Assembly (NCBI GenBank): GCA_013178125.1
Contig: JABLXJ010000018.1
Location: 1-49,404, forward strand
Direction: 5' to 3'
DNA length: 49,404 bases
From: Bacillota bacterium
GTDB lineage: Bacteria > Bacillota > SHA-98 > Ch115 > JABLXJ01
This document shows, piece by piece, positions 9,411 to 29,268 of this stretch. Every line of letters begins with the position of its first letter. The first letter of the stretch is position 1. The notes beneath the pieces are model-generated. The model saw only the letters and a program-made list of their open reading frames with translations. It did not search any database and was not told where the DNA came from. A program made the position numbers and the translations under genes.

Positions 9411-9606
9411 CTAAGTGCAGGTTCCTTAATTTGTGCCAGTTTACCAGCACGTTCCGGGACTTACGGTGTTGCGCTCTGGGGACGGCGCGCTTGCGGCGCG
9501 CCTCCGTTGAAATTTGGCGCGAGGGCCTTGCCAAATTTCAAAGGCCCCGTCGCGCAAACACCGTAAGTCCCGGAAAAGCAGCGGTAATCTGCGAACTCGC
9601 ACTTAG
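9411..9606 (+). mobile_element. MITE-like palindromic repeat, copy 1
   Basis: A 196-bp non-coding element with terminal inverted repeats CTAAGTGC/GCACTTAG. Inside are nested inverted repeats: CGGGACTTACGGTG against CACCGTAAGTCCCG, the hairpin GGCGCGC-TTGCG-GCGCGCC, and TTGAAATTTGG against CCAAATTTCAA. It encodes no protein. Related copies lie at 25648-25843 and, inverted and internally deleted, at 19403-19535. No clear target duplication is seen here. The structure suits a MITE mobilised in trans or a large REP-like element. Confidence 0.8.
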
Positions 9607-24763: not shown

Positions 24764-24859
24764 TTAAATTGTGAGGCTTCCTGTGTGAGGGTGAGGCCTC
24801 CTGCGTCGGGTTTCTGTGTCACAGCCCTGAATCTGAGGATGATGCGGGGGTCGGATGAT

Positions 24860-25627
24860 ATGTCGGATGATGCGCAGGATAGGATAATGATGCGGGATAG
24901 AATAATGATAGAGATGCGGAACATTCACAAGTGGTTCGGCAGGGTCTGCGCGCTGAGGGGCGTGGACTTTCGCGTAGGGTATAGCGAAGTCGTCGGCCTC
25001 GTGGGGGATAACGGGGCGGGTAAGTCCACCCTGATAAAGGTGTTGTCCGGTGTCTACCCTCCCGATGAGGGCGAGATAATTTTCGAGGGACGCGTGGTGC
25101 GTTTTTCATCCCCGAGGGACGCCATGGAGGCGGGCATAGAAACAATCCACCAGGAGACAGCGCTCGTGGACACGATGGACGTCAGGAGAAACATATTCTT
25201 GGGGAGGGAGTTGACGCGCCGTATTGGTCCCATAGAATTGCTGGATCTCAAGCAGATGGCAGAGGAATCAGCCCGTGCCCTCCGGGAAGTCGGCCTCGAG
25301 CTGAGGTCTGCGGCGGCAAGCGTAAGGGAGCTGTCGGGGGGCCAGAGACAGGGCGTAGCCATCGCCAGGGCTATGTATTTCAAGACCAGGCTCTTGATCC
25401 TGGATGAGCCCACGAATAACCTCTCTGTGAAGGAGTCTAACAAGGTCCTGCAATACATACAGGATCTCAAGCGGCAGGGAATATCAAGCATCTTTATAAC
25501 TCACAACCTCCATCATGTTTATCCCGCCGCTGACAGGCTCGTAGTGCTGAAACACGGTGAAAAGATAGCCGATGTGAATAGGGAGGATACTTCAATAGAA
25601 GGGCTTACTCGCCTCATGATCGCCTGA
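24860..25627 (+). CDS. Sugar ABC transporter ATPase, half-size RbsA type
   Basis: A 255-residue ATPase with one nucleotide-binding domain: Walker A GDNGAGKS, Q-loop HQETALVD, signature LSGGQRQGV, Walker B LLILDEPTNNL and switch His in FITHNLHHV. Classical RbsA has two such domains in about 500 residues; this is a single-domain version, as in FrcA-type importers. I take ATG 24860, preceded by GCGGGGG; the N-terminal 16 residues (MSDDAQDRIMMRDRIM) are unconserved and ATG 24908 is an alternative. In Walker B the residue after the signature PTNNL is Asn where Ala/Gly is common, a feature of this subfamily. Last gene before a MITE copy and a terminator. Confidence 0.93.
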   Translation: MSDDAQDRIMMRDRIMIEMRNIHKWFGRVCALRGVDFRVGYSEVVGLVGDNGAGKSTLIKVLSGVYPPDEGEIIFEGRVVRFSSPRDAMEAGIETIHQETALVDTMDVRRNIFLGRELTRRIGPIELLDLKQMAEESARALREVGLELRSAAASVRELSGGQRQGVAIARAMYFKTRLLILDEPTNNLSVKESNKVLQYIQDLKRQGISSIFITHNLHHVYPAADRLVVLKHGEKIADVNREDTSIEGLTRLMIA

Positions 25628-25647
25628 TGCTGATGCCTATGCTGATG

Positions 25648-25843
25648 CTAAGTGCAGGTCCCTAAATCTGTGCCAGTTTACCAGCACGTCCCAGGACTTA
25701 CGGTGTTGCGCTCCGGGGACGGCGCGCTTGCGGCGCGCCTCCGTTGAAATTTGGCGCGAGGGCCTTGCCAAATTTCAAAGGCCCCGTCGCGCAAGCACCG
25801 TAAGTCCTGGAAAAGTGGCGACAATCTTTGAACATTCACATAG
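25648..25843 (+). mobile_element. MITE-like palindromic repeat, copy 3
   Basis: A 196-bp element nearly identical in its core to copy 1 (9411-9606): the same CTAAGTGCAGGT left end, GGACTTACGGTG arms, GGCGCGC hairpin and AAATTTGG/CCAAATTT stem. The right end has drifted to CACATAG. It is flanked by TGCTGATG (25640-25647) and TGCTAATG (25844-25851), a possible 8-bp target duplication. Confidence 0.85.
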
Positions 25844-25928
25844 TGCTAATGGAAAGTGGTCGTCTGCGGAAATTCGTCGGCAGGCAGGATGTATGTAAAT
25901 GTAAGAGAAGAAGTAAGGTAAGAAGGGT

Positions 25929-25968
25929 ATGGGTGCGGTCCTCCAGGGTTCCCGCACCCATATTTTTT
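25929..25968 (+). terminator. Rho-independent terminator after ribose-type importer
   Basis: ATGGGTGCGG (25929-25938) pairs with CCGCACCCAT (25952-25961), 10 bp with a 13-base loop, followed at once by ATTTTTT. It closes the sugar importer operon and shields the CsoR promoter that begins 78 bases later. Confidence 0.85.
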
Positions 25969-26045
25969 GCCTGCTGGTTTGAGGTTTGATTTTGCGCACA
26001 AAATAGGCGGGGAATAAAAAATATGAGGGAACAAACGGGAGCCTA

Positions 26046-26074
26046 TTGACTTATGTTAGGGGACCACATATAAT
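26046..26074 (+). promoter_or_regulatory. Promoter of the csoR-trx unit
   Basis: TTGACT (26046-26051), 17 bases, TATAAT (26069-26074), close to consensus. The GC-rich palindrome at 26091-26110 lies about where transcription starts, so repressor binding there would block it. Confidence 0.8.
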
Positions 26075-26090
26075 GAATTTAGAAGCCAGA

Positions 26091-26110
26091 CCCCACCCCT
26101 GGGGGAGGGG
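26091..26110. promoter_or_regulatory. Probable CsoR-family operator
   Basis: CCCCACCCCTGGGGGAGGGG is a near-palindrome of C- and G-tracts. CsoR/RcnR/CstR repressors are known to bind such GC-tract dyads flanked by AT pairs. It lies between the -10 box and the repressor gene, which points to autoregulation. Confidence 0.65.
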
Positions 26111-26180
26111 CCCAAAATTGGCAGGGAATCTATCGCGTCATCCCGACCCCAACGCTGATGGTGAGAAAGGAGGCGGGCCG

Positions 26181-26525
26181 GTGAAGGAATTTGAGGAAGG
26201 CGAGAACCCGGCGGGATCCCATGGCATGGAGGGAATCGCTGATGCTTCCGATGCTGCATATGCGGCGGCGCGCGACGAGTTGCTTCGCAGGCTCAAGACG
26301 ATAAAGGGACACATAGCGGGGATCGAGAAGATGGTTGAGCATGGGCAGGATTGCACGGATGTGCTGGCCCAGCTTGCGGCCATAAAGTCTGCGATCAACA
26401 AGGTCCAGCTAAGCGTCCTCGAAAGCTATGCCCGGCAGTGCGTGCTCAACTCCATGGCAAGCGGTCGGGACGTGCAGGCCGAGATGCAGAGGATGATCGA
26501 TACCATTTTCAAGACCCTGAGGTAG
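26181..26525 (+). CDS. CsoR/FrmR-family metal or persulfide-sensing repressor
   Basis: A 114-residue repressor of the Trns_repr_metal family, an all-helical DNA-binding tetramer. GTG 26181 is chosen because AAGGAGG lies seven bases upstream. The core starts near residue 32 (DELLRRLKTIKGHIAGIEKM). The two conserved cysteines are Cys58 and Cys87, 29 apart as in CsoR (C36, C65), but the copper-ligand histidine position (25 after the first Cys) is Tyr83. That rules against classical Cu(I) sensing and resembles the CstR class, which senses sulfane sulfur through two cysteines. The thioredoxin gene downstream fits thiol chemistry. The 30-residue acidic N-terminal tail is unusual. A GC-tract operator and strong promoter precede it. 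Confidence 0.88.
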   Translation: MKEFEEGENPAGSHGMEGIADASDAAYAAARDELLRRLKTIKGHIAGIEKMVEHGQDCTDVLAQLAAIKSAINKVQLSVLESYARQCVLNSMASGRDVQAEMQRMIDTIFKTLR

Positions 26526-26670
26526 CTGCGGCAGGTTTCGGCTTTGTTATGGTTTGGGTTATGGTTCAGCCTTATTATGGGAGGGAGAAGGGGCTGTGGG
26601 ACGATCAGCGAAACATGGGACGGAGGCGCGTAGAGTAAGTGCGGGATCCGGTCATCACCGGAGGAGGCTC

Positions 26671-27150
26671 ATGCTCGTTGGGGCCCTTCTCGCAATCATT
26701 TGTGTTACCGGCATCTTGGGAGCGGCATACTATTTATCGAATGCTAAGATGAACGGCTCGGGGGCGTCCTCGGGCGCCACCCGTTCAGATAAGCCAGGTT
26801 CAAATGTGGAAGGAGGAAAAAACATGTCTCACCCCATCGAAGTGACAGATGCAACCTTTCAGTCGGAAATAAGGGCGTACAAAGGCGTGGCCCTCGTAGA
26901 CTTCTGGGCTGCATGGTGCGGCCCGTGCAGGATGATGGCTCCAATTGTCTCGGAGCTAGCTGAGGATTACCAGGGAAAGGCCAAGATCGCAAAGCTGGAC
27001 GTGGACGAAAATCCGGAGACGGCTTCGCGTTTCGGCATAATGAGCATACCAACCCTGCTCATCTTCAAGGATGGTCAGGTCGTGGACCAGGTCATCGGGG
27101 TTCAGCCCAAGGAAGCCCTGAAGCAGAGGCTCAACCGGTGGATTCAATGA
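26671..27150 (+). CDS. Thioredoxin, membrane-anchored form with internal start
   Basis: From ATG 26671 (GGAGGAGG three to six bases upstream) the product has 159 residues: a membrane helix (MLVGALLAIICVTGILGAAY), a Ser/Gly-rich linker and a full thioredoxin domain. A second ATG at 26824, with AAGGAGG seven bases upstream, begins MSHPIEVTDATF and would make a standard 108-residue soluble thioredoxin. The active site is WCGPC and the cis-proline loop is MSIPTLLIF, both intact. Thioredoxins reduce protein disulfides; an anchored form would act outside the membrane. One frame may thus give two proteins, or only the second start is used. It lies 145 bases after the CsoR-family gene, probably cotranscribed. 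Confidence 0.88.
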   Translation: MLVGALLAIICVTGILGAAYYLSNAKMNGSGASSGATRSDKPGSNVEGGKNMSHPIEVTDATFQSEIRAYKGVALVDFWAAWCGPCRMMAPIVSELAEDYQGKAKIAKLDVDENPETASRFGIMSIPTLLIFKDGQVVDQVIGVQPKEALKQRLNRWIQ

Positions 27151-27253
27151 ACGAGTGACTTCCAAATGGAGGACATAGCGACGATAGAGGAGTCCTGAAG
27201 CAGGCCTGGAGTCCTGGAGCCTGGAATTCCAGCAGGCCATCAGGTGGGTAATG

Positions 27254-27287
27254 ATGGTGCTCCCGGCAAGCTCGCCGGGGGCACCAT
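27254..27287. terminator. 14-bp hairpin after thioredoxin gene
   Basis: ATGGTGCTCCCGGC (27254-27267) pairs with GCCGGGGGCACCAT (27274-27287) with one T-G wobble and a six-base loop. No T-run follows on either strand. A second palindromic patch (TGGTGCC...GGCACCA) lies at about 27348-27381. The 279-base spacer between the convergent thioredoxin and FmdB genes holds nothing else; these may act as bidirectional termination signals. Confidence 0.5.
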
Positions 27288-27429
27288 GTCGTTGGGTCGC
27301 GTGTGCGATCCGGCGTGGCATCCGATAGCGATGTCGGCCTGGTAATGGTGCCAGCCTGGCGGTCTGGCGCCAGCGGCACCAGCCAGGGGCGTTAGCTGGA
27401 GCTCAGGATTCAGGGTCAAGAATTCAACT

Positions 27430-27696
27430 TCAAGAGCTATGGGAGGATGCCGCCGTCTCCTTGAGAGATGAAGAGCTCCCTCCCCCATCATCTGCTTTCA
27501 TGCTCTCTTTATACTCTTTACTGCGGTGGTCTGTGGTGTAAAAGCCGGACCCTTTGAAGATGATATTTACGTTGGAGCTTATGAGCCTCTTAACGGGTCC
27601 GCCGCAGGTGGGGCAGGTTTTTAATGGTTCCTCGCTCATGCTCTGTAATTCTTCGAAACGCCCGCACTTCTTGCATAGGTATTCATAGGTAGGCAT
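27430..27696 (-). CDS. FmdB-family zinc ribbon protein
   Basis: An 88-residue protein with the FmdB-type zinc ribbon at its N-terminus: MPTYEYLCKKCGRFEELQSM, then CPTCGGPVKRLISS, giving two CxxC pairs for one zinc. The NVNIIFKGSGFYTTDHR segment that follows is conserved in the family. The last 25 residues are Ser/Asp/Gly-rich and disordered. FmdB was first linked to amidase/formamidase regulation, but the family is widespread and its role is not settled. ATG with GGGAGGG upstream. It is divergent from the DedA gene. Confidence 0.93.
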   Translation of the reverse strand: MPTYEYLCKKCGRFEELQSMSEEPLKTCPTCGGPVKRLISSNVNIIFKGSGFYTTDHRSKEYKESMKADDGGGSSSSLKETAASSHSS

Positions 27697-27877
27697 TTTG
27701 AAAGGATCCCTCCCGGACTATTCATGTCTTATTGATTGTTTGCTAATTGATTATAGCGGTGCGCTCACAAAATAATATAGTTAAAGAAACACTGGATGTC
27801 AAGAGAAGGGATATATGTCACTTGGTGTGAGATAGGTTAGGTCGGCAGGAGAAGGGTGAAAGGGCAGGGGGTCTGAG

Positions 27878-28483
27878 TTGGAGAGTCTCGGGGATGGCAT
27901 TTACAGGCTGGTCGCAAATTACGGCTATATCGCGATCTTTATATGCCTTGCGATTGAAGGAACAGGCATGCCGGGCCCGGTCCAGCTGGTTTTCATGGCG
28001 GCGGGGTATCTCATAAGCAAAGGCCAGCTCGATTTCGCCCTGGTGGCTGTTATCGCAACCCTTGGCAATGTCACGGGCAACGCGGTTGGATACATGATAG
28101 GAGCAAAGGGTGGCAGGACTGTCCTCCGGAGGTATGGCCGCTATTTCAGACTTAGGGAGGAGCACCTCGATGCCGTTGAGGCGTGGTTTCAAAGCTACGG
28201 TCCCCCGGCGGCATTCTTCGCTCGCCTCTTCGGGATTCCAAGAACTCCCACAATCCTTGGTGCTGGAGTGGCCCGTATGAACCCGGGCCTCTTCCTGATC
28301 TTCTCGGGGCTGGGCGATTTTGTATGGAGCGTCTTCTGGACCTACGTGGGCGTCTTCTCGGGAACCTATGTGGCGCAGATTTTCGAGATCATGAGGCCAT
28401 TTGAGGTTCTTATTATAGCGGCCCTGATCGTAGCTGTGGTGGCCATGCTTATTATAAGGTCCTTGAAATATACCCATCGCTAG
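27878..28483 (+). CDS. DedA-family membrane protein
   Basis: A 201-residue integral membrane protein of the DedA/VTT family. Features are an N-terminal re-entrant region with the conserved Glu (FICLAIEGTGMPGPVQLVFM), GNVTGNAVGYMIG, the basic FFARLFGIPRTPTILGAGVA loop with the essential Arg, and a C-terminal helix. DedA proteins move phospholipids (undecaprenyl phosphate or phosphatidylethanolamine) across the membrane and support proton-motive force and drug resistance. TTG start with CAGGGGG six bases upstream. Single gene; it converges on livF. Confidence 0.93.
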   Translation: MESLGDGIYRLVANYGYIAIFICLAIEGTGMPGPVQLVFMAAGYLISKGQLDFALVAVIATLGNVTGNAVGYMIGAKGGRTVLRRYGRYFRLREEHLDAVEAWFQSYGPPAAFFARLFGIPRTPTILGAGVARMNPGLFLIFSGLGDFVWSVFWTYVGVFSGTYVAQIFEIMRPFEVLIIAALIVAVVAMLIIRSLKYTHR

Positions 28484-28563
28484 CAGCCGGCAGCTAGGCT
28501 GGTAGCTGCGGCCAGGCTCCGACGGCCGGGGGCTCCAGAGGTTTATCCCCTCTTCTCCCGAAG

Positions 28564-29268
28564 CTATTCCCCGAGGTATGCCTTCTTCACCTGCTCGTTT
28601 TCTAGAAGCTCGCGGCCGGAGCCGGACATCGTAATTTTCCCCGTTTCGAGGACGTATCCGTAGTCAGCAAGCTTAAGCGCAGCCTTGGCGTTCTGCTCGA
28701 TCAGAAGTATGGTGCGGCCCTGCTCGTGGATCTGCCTCAGGACATCAAAGACCTCGTTTACCAGCACAGGGGCGAGGCCGAGAGAAGGCTCGTCGAGCGC
28801 CAGGAGCCTTGGCCTCGACATCAACGCGCGACCTACGGCGAGCATCTGCTGTTCTCCTCCGGAAAGCGTGCCGCCCTTCTGGCGTTGGCGCTCCTTCAGG
28901 CGGGGGAAGAGGGAGAATACCCAGTCCAGGTCGCTGTAGACCTCATCCTTATCCGTCCGCGGATAGGCGCCCATCAGGAGGTTTTCCAGGACGGTGAGGT
29001 TGGGGAAGATCCGGCGTCCCTCGGGAGCCATGGCAACCCCTTTTTGGATCACGACGTGGGCTGGCTTACCCGTTATATCTTCATTCATAAGCCTAATGGA
29101 ACCCTTTTGGGCCCTGATCAGTCCAGCTACGGCCCGGAGGGTGGTGCTCTTGCCGGCTCCGTTGGCTCCGATCAGCGTCACGATCTTGCCCTCGGGAACA
29201 TTCATGGTGATCCCCTTCAGAGCATGAATACCGCCATAATAAACGTGTAGATTCTCAAGCCTCAGCAT
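28564..29268 (-). CDS. livF: Branched-chain amino acid ABC ATPase LivF
   Basis: A 234-residue ATPase: Walker A GANGAGKS, signature LSGGEQQML, Walker B LLALDEPSLGLAP, and the LivF-type LIEQNAKAALKLADYGYVLE with C-terminal KKAYLGE. It drives uptake of leucine, isoleucine, valine or similar compounds with LivG. Its start overlaps the end of livG by 14 bases. Last gene of the minus-strand liv operon. Confidence 0.96.
   Translation of the reverse strand: MLRLENLHVYYGGIHALKGITMNVPEGKIVTLIGANGAGKSTTLRAVAGLIRAQKGSIRLMNEDITGKPAHVVIQKGVAMAPEGRRIFPNLTVLENLLMGAYPRTDKDEVYSDLDWVFSLFPRLKERQRQKGGTLSGGEQQMLAVGRALMSRPRLLALDEPSLGLAPVLVNEVFDVLRQIHEQGRTILLIEQNAKAALKLADYGYVLETGKITMSGSGRELLENEQVKKAYLGE

Follow-up and report, generated by a model that had tools for sequence, protein, structure and literature searches.

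A CsoR-family repressor gene without the copper fingerprint precedes a thioredoxin gene in a Bacillota lineage and may encode a thiol-based switch of its own operon

What does a CsoR-family repressor sense when the histidine that binds copper in its relatives is a tyrosine and the gene that follows it encodes a thioredoxin? The question is raised by a 49,404-nucleotide stretch of DNA (hereafter the window), one whole contig (JABLXJ010000018.1) of the 3.48-Mb genome of a Bacillota bacterium (GCA_013178125.1, here G000), for which a sequence-only reading had proposed a sulfur or redox sensing role by resemblance to the CstR-type persulfide sensors. The two genes concerned and their start signals are laid out as follows.

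26181–26525, + strand: CsoR-family repressor gene (csoR), GTG start, 114 aa, with C58, Y83 and C87
26167–26173, + strand: ribosome-binding site AAGGAGG of csoR, read directly from the sequence
26554–27150, + strand: longest open reading frame of the thioredoxin gene (trx; TIGR01068), with the same layout in genomes G001–G003
ATG 26671 (or GTG 26596), + strand: likely start of a membrane-anchored thioredoxin, with a hydrophobic segment at about 26668–26724
26824–27150, + strand: possible second, soluble thioredoxin, from ATG 26824 behind GGAGG, its Met conserved in four genomes

The family assignment of the repressor was secure, with a PF02583 (CsoR/RcnR, DUF156) match of 84.6 bits over residues 31–109 against a cut-off of 22.8, and its best solved relatives by sequence were chains of CsoR, InrS, and CstR. 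The best 17 Foldseek rows for a single-sequence AlphaFold model (mean pLDDT 80) were CsoR, InrS, CstR, and FrmR chains with weak scores (best E 6.4e-3, none ≤ 0.001; TM 0.33–0.45 by query and 0.47–0.70 by target), and a search of genome contigs for relatives returned one locus, in the sister species. The translated frame bears out the earlier observation that Cys58 and Cys87 keep a spacing of 29 with Tyr83 at Cys58+25. On the copper fingerprint, the protein has Cys58 at position X, Tyr83 at Y (+25), and Cys87 at Z (+29), and alignment with 2hh7 places Asp57 and Arg104 at the second-shell positions A and B; it has neither the Cys-His-Cys at X-Y-Z that is required of the Cu(I) sensor CsoR nor the second-shell Tyr (A) and Glu (B) of Cu(I) sensors. 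Glu at B is apparently kept in the relatives from family f2, as judged by eye. According to excerpts of the InrS paper (PMC4235346), Tyr at A always goes with His at Y and Glu or Asp at B. The changes at A, Y, and B support the conclusion that the window protein does not belong with the canonical sensors of Cu(I). Detection of formaldehyde, as by FrmR, or of nickel or cobalt, as by RcnR, is very improbable, as the family-level similarity to these two curated models (49 and 32.5 bits, respectively) falls far under their cut-offs of 133 and 138, the RicR model likewise gave a weak match far under its cut-off, no formaldehyde dehydrogenase or nickel exporter was recognised among the scanned neighbours, and RcnR has His at both +25 and +29 (PMC4235346, excerpts).

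Copper sensing has a better candidate elsewhere in G000. Of the two further CsoR-family members of this genome, one has the canonical Tyr-Cys-His-Cys set, and at a distance of about 1.4 kb from it lies the gene of a YHS-domain P-type ATPase of 771 residues; the contig with this canonical CsoR also encodes another P-type ATPase, which carries an HMA domain. Beyond the family and the cysteine positions that it shares with the Cu(I) sensors of Mycobacterium tuberculosis (2hh7) and Geobacillus thermodenitrificans (4m1p), the window protein differs from them in the His ligand, the second-shell Tyr, and the Glu, in its region of the tree, and in its linkage, which is to thioredoxin where theirs is to copper export.

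The thioredoxin gene that had been read downstream of csoR was confirmed by a TIGR01068 match of 128.8 bits against a cut-off of 96.8. It was compared across an order sample of four genomes, about 12.4 Mb in total, consisting of G000 and the three others of the order that the searches reached, namely G001 from the same genus and G002 and G003 from another family (f2). The longest thioredoxin frame opens 28 bases past the csoR stop in the window and overlaps that stop by 4 bases in the two f2 genomes. A hydrophobic segment precedes the thioredoxin domain in all four genomes (19-residue Kyte-Doolittle means of 2.5–2.9), and the Met at the start of the domain lies behind GGAGG in the window's genus (2 genomes), with a purine-rich stretch farther away in f2; given this hydrophobic N-terminus and the conserved internal Met, both within 26554–26826 of the window, anchored and soluble forms of the protein are both possible. 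Judging from the PF00085 matches, of which G001, G003, and G126 have one each and G000 and G002 two each, the second match in G000 spanning only profile positions 19–60 of 103, csoR-trx may supply the main or sole classical thioredoxin in these draft assemblies (G126 being 78% complete). At the four operons of the order, same-strand searches over 1.5 kb for HMA genes and over 2.5 kb for P-type ATPase genes found neither. No sulfurtransferase, CstA/B, SQR, or sulfite-exporter gene was recognised beside the window csoR, where thioredoxin stood alone among the scanned neighbours.

The upstream region holds the signals by which such an operon could be controlled.

26046–26074, + strand: sigma-70-type promoter TTGACT-17-TATAAT, 11 of 12 consensus bases
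26092–26109, no strand: predicted operator dyad CCCACCCC-TG-GGGGAGGG, the 18-bp core of a dyad at 26091–26110, conserved in four genomes
25928–25968, + strand: terminator-like inverted repeat and T run, arms 25928–25938 and 25952–25962, dividing csoR from the upstream ABC-transporter gene

Both the near-consensus promoter and the GC-tract dyad of the sequence-only reading are present. The promoter match is weak by itself, because 2 promoter-like sites came out of a 2.2-kb scan in which shuffled sequence gave 1.3 on average. The dyad is borne out: the operator pattern CCCWCCCCNNGGGGWGGG has a single match in the 49.4-kb window, and none of 100 dinucleotide shuffles contained it; it starts 17 bases past TATAAT, just 3' of the expected transcription start. 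The pattern was derived from the window site and three related sites, and its presence at these four founding sites is therefore by construction. Within the order sample, CCCACCCC-NN-GGGGWGGG follows TATAAT in 4/4 genomes with a constant two-base gap and differing flanks, and its position is kept although the csoR proteins of the other family are only 42–45% identical. A GC-tract palindromic operator is a trait of the CsoR/RcnR family that the predicted site displays, and the M. tuberculosis CsoR site GTAGCCCACCCCCAGTGGGGTGGATAC (PMC10318464, excerpts) is of the same GC-tract type.

Each of G000–G003 holds one exact operator match, every time 5' of csoR-trx, with no further exact matches in the roughly 12.4 Mb of these genomes, a distribution that fits a repressor targeting solely its own operon in this order. 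A wider regulon was looked for with the pattern: the sites with one mismatch, of which G000, G001, and G002 have a single one and G003 has none, all sit within coding frames, and sites with up to two mismatches numbered 28 in the four genomes against 27 for a reversed-pattern control. In G000 and in the sister genome, the dyad close to the promoter of the csoR2 paralogue is another one, read by eye as ATACCC-NN-GGGAGTA. Outside the order, an exact match lies upstream of csoR in L066 (genome G100), which belongs to a different family and the same protein clade, and near matches lie upstream of csoR in L067 (1 mismatch), L070, and L100 (2 each), all of the clade described below; the scores at these four loci were reached by 0/40 single-base shuffles of their own upstream sequence. 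An operator-like site was not found upstream of most other members of the clade.

Farther upstream, the terminator-like repeat was missed by a simple hairpin scan with a loop limit of 8, and Rfam gave no matches in 25400–28600 at gathering thresholds. A 128-bp element at 25688–25815, which contains an internal hairpin and, close to either end, one arm of a perfect 15-bp inverted repeat, has another copy at 9451–9578 and 42 matches in its own genome, 25 of them of at least 96 bases; this element, just upstream of the csoR promoter, is a member of a MITE- or REP-like family. The sugar ABC-transporter ATPase frame at 24785–25627 (280 aa) has about half the length of the matched xylose/ribose-type ATPases and is either a single-domain version or a shortened gene.

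Two trees were built on 85 columns each, one of 117 rows from a quick search and one of 62 rows from a careful search; the underlying 111-row set (102 genome and 9 plasmid rows) was chosen by score against A1, is therefore biased, and served for trees and examples only. In both trees the window protein fell in a clade marked by the motif GH..[GA][IV]E[KR]M (the GH clade), which comprised 41 rows with an SH-aLRT of 86 in the larger tree and 28 rows with a bootstrap of 88 and an SH-aLRT of 96 in the smaller; within the 111-row set, the full motif was carried by 40/40 rows with GH at that place. Canonical CsoR and CstR references were placed outside the clade. The sequence-only reading had named placement among confirmed metal or formaldehyde sensors as evidence against its proposal, and none of the characterised references used falls in the window's clade.

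The residue at +25 is mostly Tyr within the GH clade, but His, Met, Leu, Phe, and Asp also occur, and because of this variation the tyrosine may do nothing itself. Tyr at +25 is also found outside the clade, in families f13, f85, f11, f2, and others, and on the 62-row tree this position switched between Tyr, His, and other residues at least 8 times, so Cys-Tyr-Cys is recurrent and not special to the window gene. Two further groups were observed with Tyr at +25. One, in f13 (L147, L155, L159, L161, L172, and L181), is another Cys-Tyr-Cys lineage that does not belong to the GH clade and has a thioredoxin gene directly 3' in 6/6 cases; in the other, L149, L152, L177, and L186 carry Cys-Cys at the sensing position, where a third cysteine adjoins the sensing thiol.

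The likeness to CstR-type persulfide sensors, on which the earlier reading leaned, held only in part. CstR resembles the window protein (in Streptococcus pneumoniae, 7mq1/7mq2, and in the Staphylococcus saprophyticus plasmid copy L108) as a small DUF156 repressor, all-helical in CstR and probably so in the window protein, with the same dithiol spacing and no His at +25, and SpCstR, too, has Asp before the first Cys. Yet Asn stands at +25 in all four of the CstR sequences taken as references, which sit elsewhere in the tree: SpCstR (7mq1), the protein annotated as CstR in S. saprophyticus, and two relatives from plasmids that adjoin rhodanese genes. Forcing them together with the window's four-row group cost 34 log-likelihood units (p-AU 0.008) and forcing them together with the whole GH clade cost 20.6 (p-AU 0.035, a weak rejection), in an AU test that omitted L107 (Asn at +25) and L111 (Gly at +25), which belong to the CstR group more loosely. 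The genomic setting differs as well, since L108 neighbours CstA, CstB, SQR, and sulfite-exporter genes and the window gene neighbours thioredoxin, with none of the genes recognised around it encoding a rhodanese, CstA/B, or SQR. Some relatives within the GH clade do adjoin sulfide:quinone reductase, DsrC, and mostly DsrE genes, as detailed below, but we hold it quite improbable that the window protein is a true member of the CstR persulfide-sensor subfamily guarding sulfide-detoxification genes. On the Lactiplantibacillus plantarum plasmid that carries L107 (2600–3207), a thioredoxin-family gene lies directly 5' of the CsoR-family gene, and a heavy-metal P-type ATPase gene lies near it.

The neighbours of the GH-clade relatives point to sulfur and redox functions. 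Five of the 40 GH-motif rows have Met, Leu, or Phe at +25 (L066, L067, L070, L071, and L072), and a type III sulfide:quinone reductase gene lies directly 3' in 5/5 of them (640–649 bits against a cut-off of 525 for NF049943, which models the selenoprotein subtype of this enzyme), with a DsrC gene 3' in 5/5 (99–112 bits, cut-off 24.9) and a DsrE-family gene next in 4/5. The csoR of L104 lies 3' of an HdrB-like gene (190.7 bits, under the cut-off of 345), that of L075 lies 5' of a gene for a cysteine desulfurase (351.5 bits, over the cut-off of 304), and the Tyr-type csoR of L100 (435–2086) is followed by thioredoxin-reductase-like (193 bits, under the cut-off of 343) and thioredoxin genes. The pattern is not uniform: the Tyr-type relative L088 has a heavy-metal-associated-domain gene 3', the genes around several rows, those in f5 and f41 among them, give no functional hint, and no thioredoxin gene was found within 600 bp of the Tyr-type clade members of f5, f41, f84, f107, and f116.

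One row bears on whether the thiols matter at all. In L162 (G127, f73; ORF 1752–2147), a long, compositionally odd row on a long branch that falls in the clade of the 117-row tree and is absent from the 62-row tree, Trp and Arg replace both cysteines and a thioredoxin gene lies 38 bp 3', so the pairing of csoR with thioredoxin can persist without thiols; either the thiols were lost secondarily in L162, or thiols are not what ties the clade to thioredoxin. A simple autorepressor whose thiols detect no particular signal and which only sets the level of thioredoxin would accommodate this row together with the conserved operator and operon and the variable +25 residue, whereas the cysteine pair is present in 40/41 clade rows of the 117-row tree (partly by construction, as the row-reading pattern requires the pair), and we regard such a repressor as improbable.

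The association with thioredoxin was counted across genomes. The family was matched 84 times in 51/61 genomes, giving 84 loci, of which L220 and L261 were dropped with an incomplete sensing site to leave 82, and the residues were rechecked with a profile alignment. A thioredoxin gene was called adjacent when it lay within 600 bp on the same strand, a criterion under which contig ends may conceal some neighbours. Adjacency was found at 4/34 loci with the full Tyr-Cys-His-Cys fingerprint versus 26/48 without it (Fisher p 7e-5), in a count that treats loci as independent and was framed after part of the data had been seen; taken once per family and class, the figures were 4/25 versus 13/26 (p 0.017). 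The contrast was smaller when loci were divided by the +25 residue only (Tyr 8/16, His 20/62). Loci without Tyr at A were similar with His at +25 (16/28 adjacent, 12 of them from family f3; 5/14 families) and without it (10/20; 8/15 families), and the count therefore gives the exchange of His for Tyr no special weight. One counted thioredoxin gene, that of L028, is 424 bp away, and its close relative L097 has an intervening gene. The count supports a link between loss of the copper fingerprint and thioredoxin, but it does not speak for a role of Tyr83 in particular.

Within the 61-genome sample, CsoRs with the full fingerprint lie 5' of thioredoxin genes in four families (f4, f5, f15, and f40). 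Thioredoxin adjacency alone cannot tell sulfur from copper, because Cys-His-Cys relatives also precede thioredoxin genes, and with several H-type relatives having such a neighbour, the argument that a thioredoxin next door makes a sulfur sensor proved weak alone. That part of the earlier case for a sulfur or redox role is weakened; the role itself is still the best reading, as clade and context together favour thiol-based sensing of redox state or sulfur. The four full-fingerprint loci beside thioredoxin leave room for a metal link to thioredoxin. Pairs of cysteines are able to bind thiophilic metals, and the two in the window protein, with or without the tyrosine, might hold Cu(I) or another such metal so that thioredoxin would be induced in metal stress, a reading to which the HMA-domain gene 3' of L088 also lends itself. 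We consider it unlikely in view of the loss of A, Y, and B from the fingerprint, the lack of HMA and P-type ATPase genes within the scanned distances at the four operons of the order, the canonical CsoR near a P-type ATPase elsewhere in the genome, and the lower frequency of thioredoxin adjacency where the copper fingerprint is full.

The explanation that we favour, with reasonable though not strong confidence, is that the window protein acts as a dithiol (Cys58-Cys87') repressor of its own csoR-trx operon that answers to redox state or reactive sulfur. The reduced tetramer would bind the csoR-trx operator and block transcription; oxidants, persulfides, or polysulfides would bridge Cys58 to Cys87 of the neighbouring protomer as a disulfide or polysulfide; and the bridged form would release the DNA and derepress the operon. 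The thioredoxin then made would reduce disulfides or persulfides, probably those of the sensor also, and would so close a negative feedback loop. The effector may be either disulfide stress or persulfide/polysulfide.

Characterised proteins offer precedents for several of these steps. The nearest that we found in the open-licence literature for control of thioredoxin by a CsoR-type protein is TTHA1953 of Thermus thermophilus, a repressor of the thioredoxin SoxW that, in excerpts of PMC10318464, binds DNA in the reduced state and less well once its disulfide has formed; in the same excerpts both Cu(II) and H2O2 cost it affinity for DNA, and NaHS drew no response in the authors' assay. Compared by its published description, TTHA1953 is like the window protein in its CsoR-family fold, which is predicted for the latter, and in cysteines (39 and 68) that are 29 apart, and like the proposed repressor in having a thioredoxin gene as target, but the genes under its control, a Sox regulon for sulfur oxidation, are scattered and do not adjoin its own (PMC10318464, excerpts). 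Inter-protomer di-, tri-, and tetrasulfide bridges are described for CstR (PMC9774590, in part), and CstR, YrkD, and, by citation, the CsoR of Streptomyces coelicolor respond to sulfane sulfur, with DNA release from YrkD by elemental sulfur (PMC9918477, in part). RexT of Nostoc is likewise a thiol redox repressor that raises thioredoxin expression, but it belongs to the unrelated ArsR-SmtB family and is a parallel in logic only (PMC8960804, in part). Among the titles and abstract openings of the open-licence literature searched, we found no description of the GH clade or of a csoR-thioredoxin operon; the window protein is a variant of a known repressor family.

A wider picture, which we put forward tentatively and consider less likely than not, is that in anaerobic Bacillota repeated, independent losses of the copper fingerprint gave rise to thiol sensors that control thioredoxin operons, and that the window's clade, with mostly Tyr for the copper His, is an uncharacterised subfamily of such sensors, whose sole target in the window's order would be its own csoR-trx operon, encoding the only thioredoxin detected in G001 and G003, maybe in anchored and soluble forms from two starts. 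For the annotation of the family, the counts suggest a genomic rule by which CsoR-family genes without the full Tyr-Cys-His-Cys adjoin thioredoxin more often than those with the fingerprint, and some of the former adjoin sulfide-handling genes; most of the plasmid rows listed call such genes "metal-sensitive", "metal-sensing", or FrmR. For the organism, the locus would represent an autoregulatory thioredoxin switch that is directly testable, as its predicted 18-bp operator has a single site in each genome and the candidate sensing residues are two cysteines.
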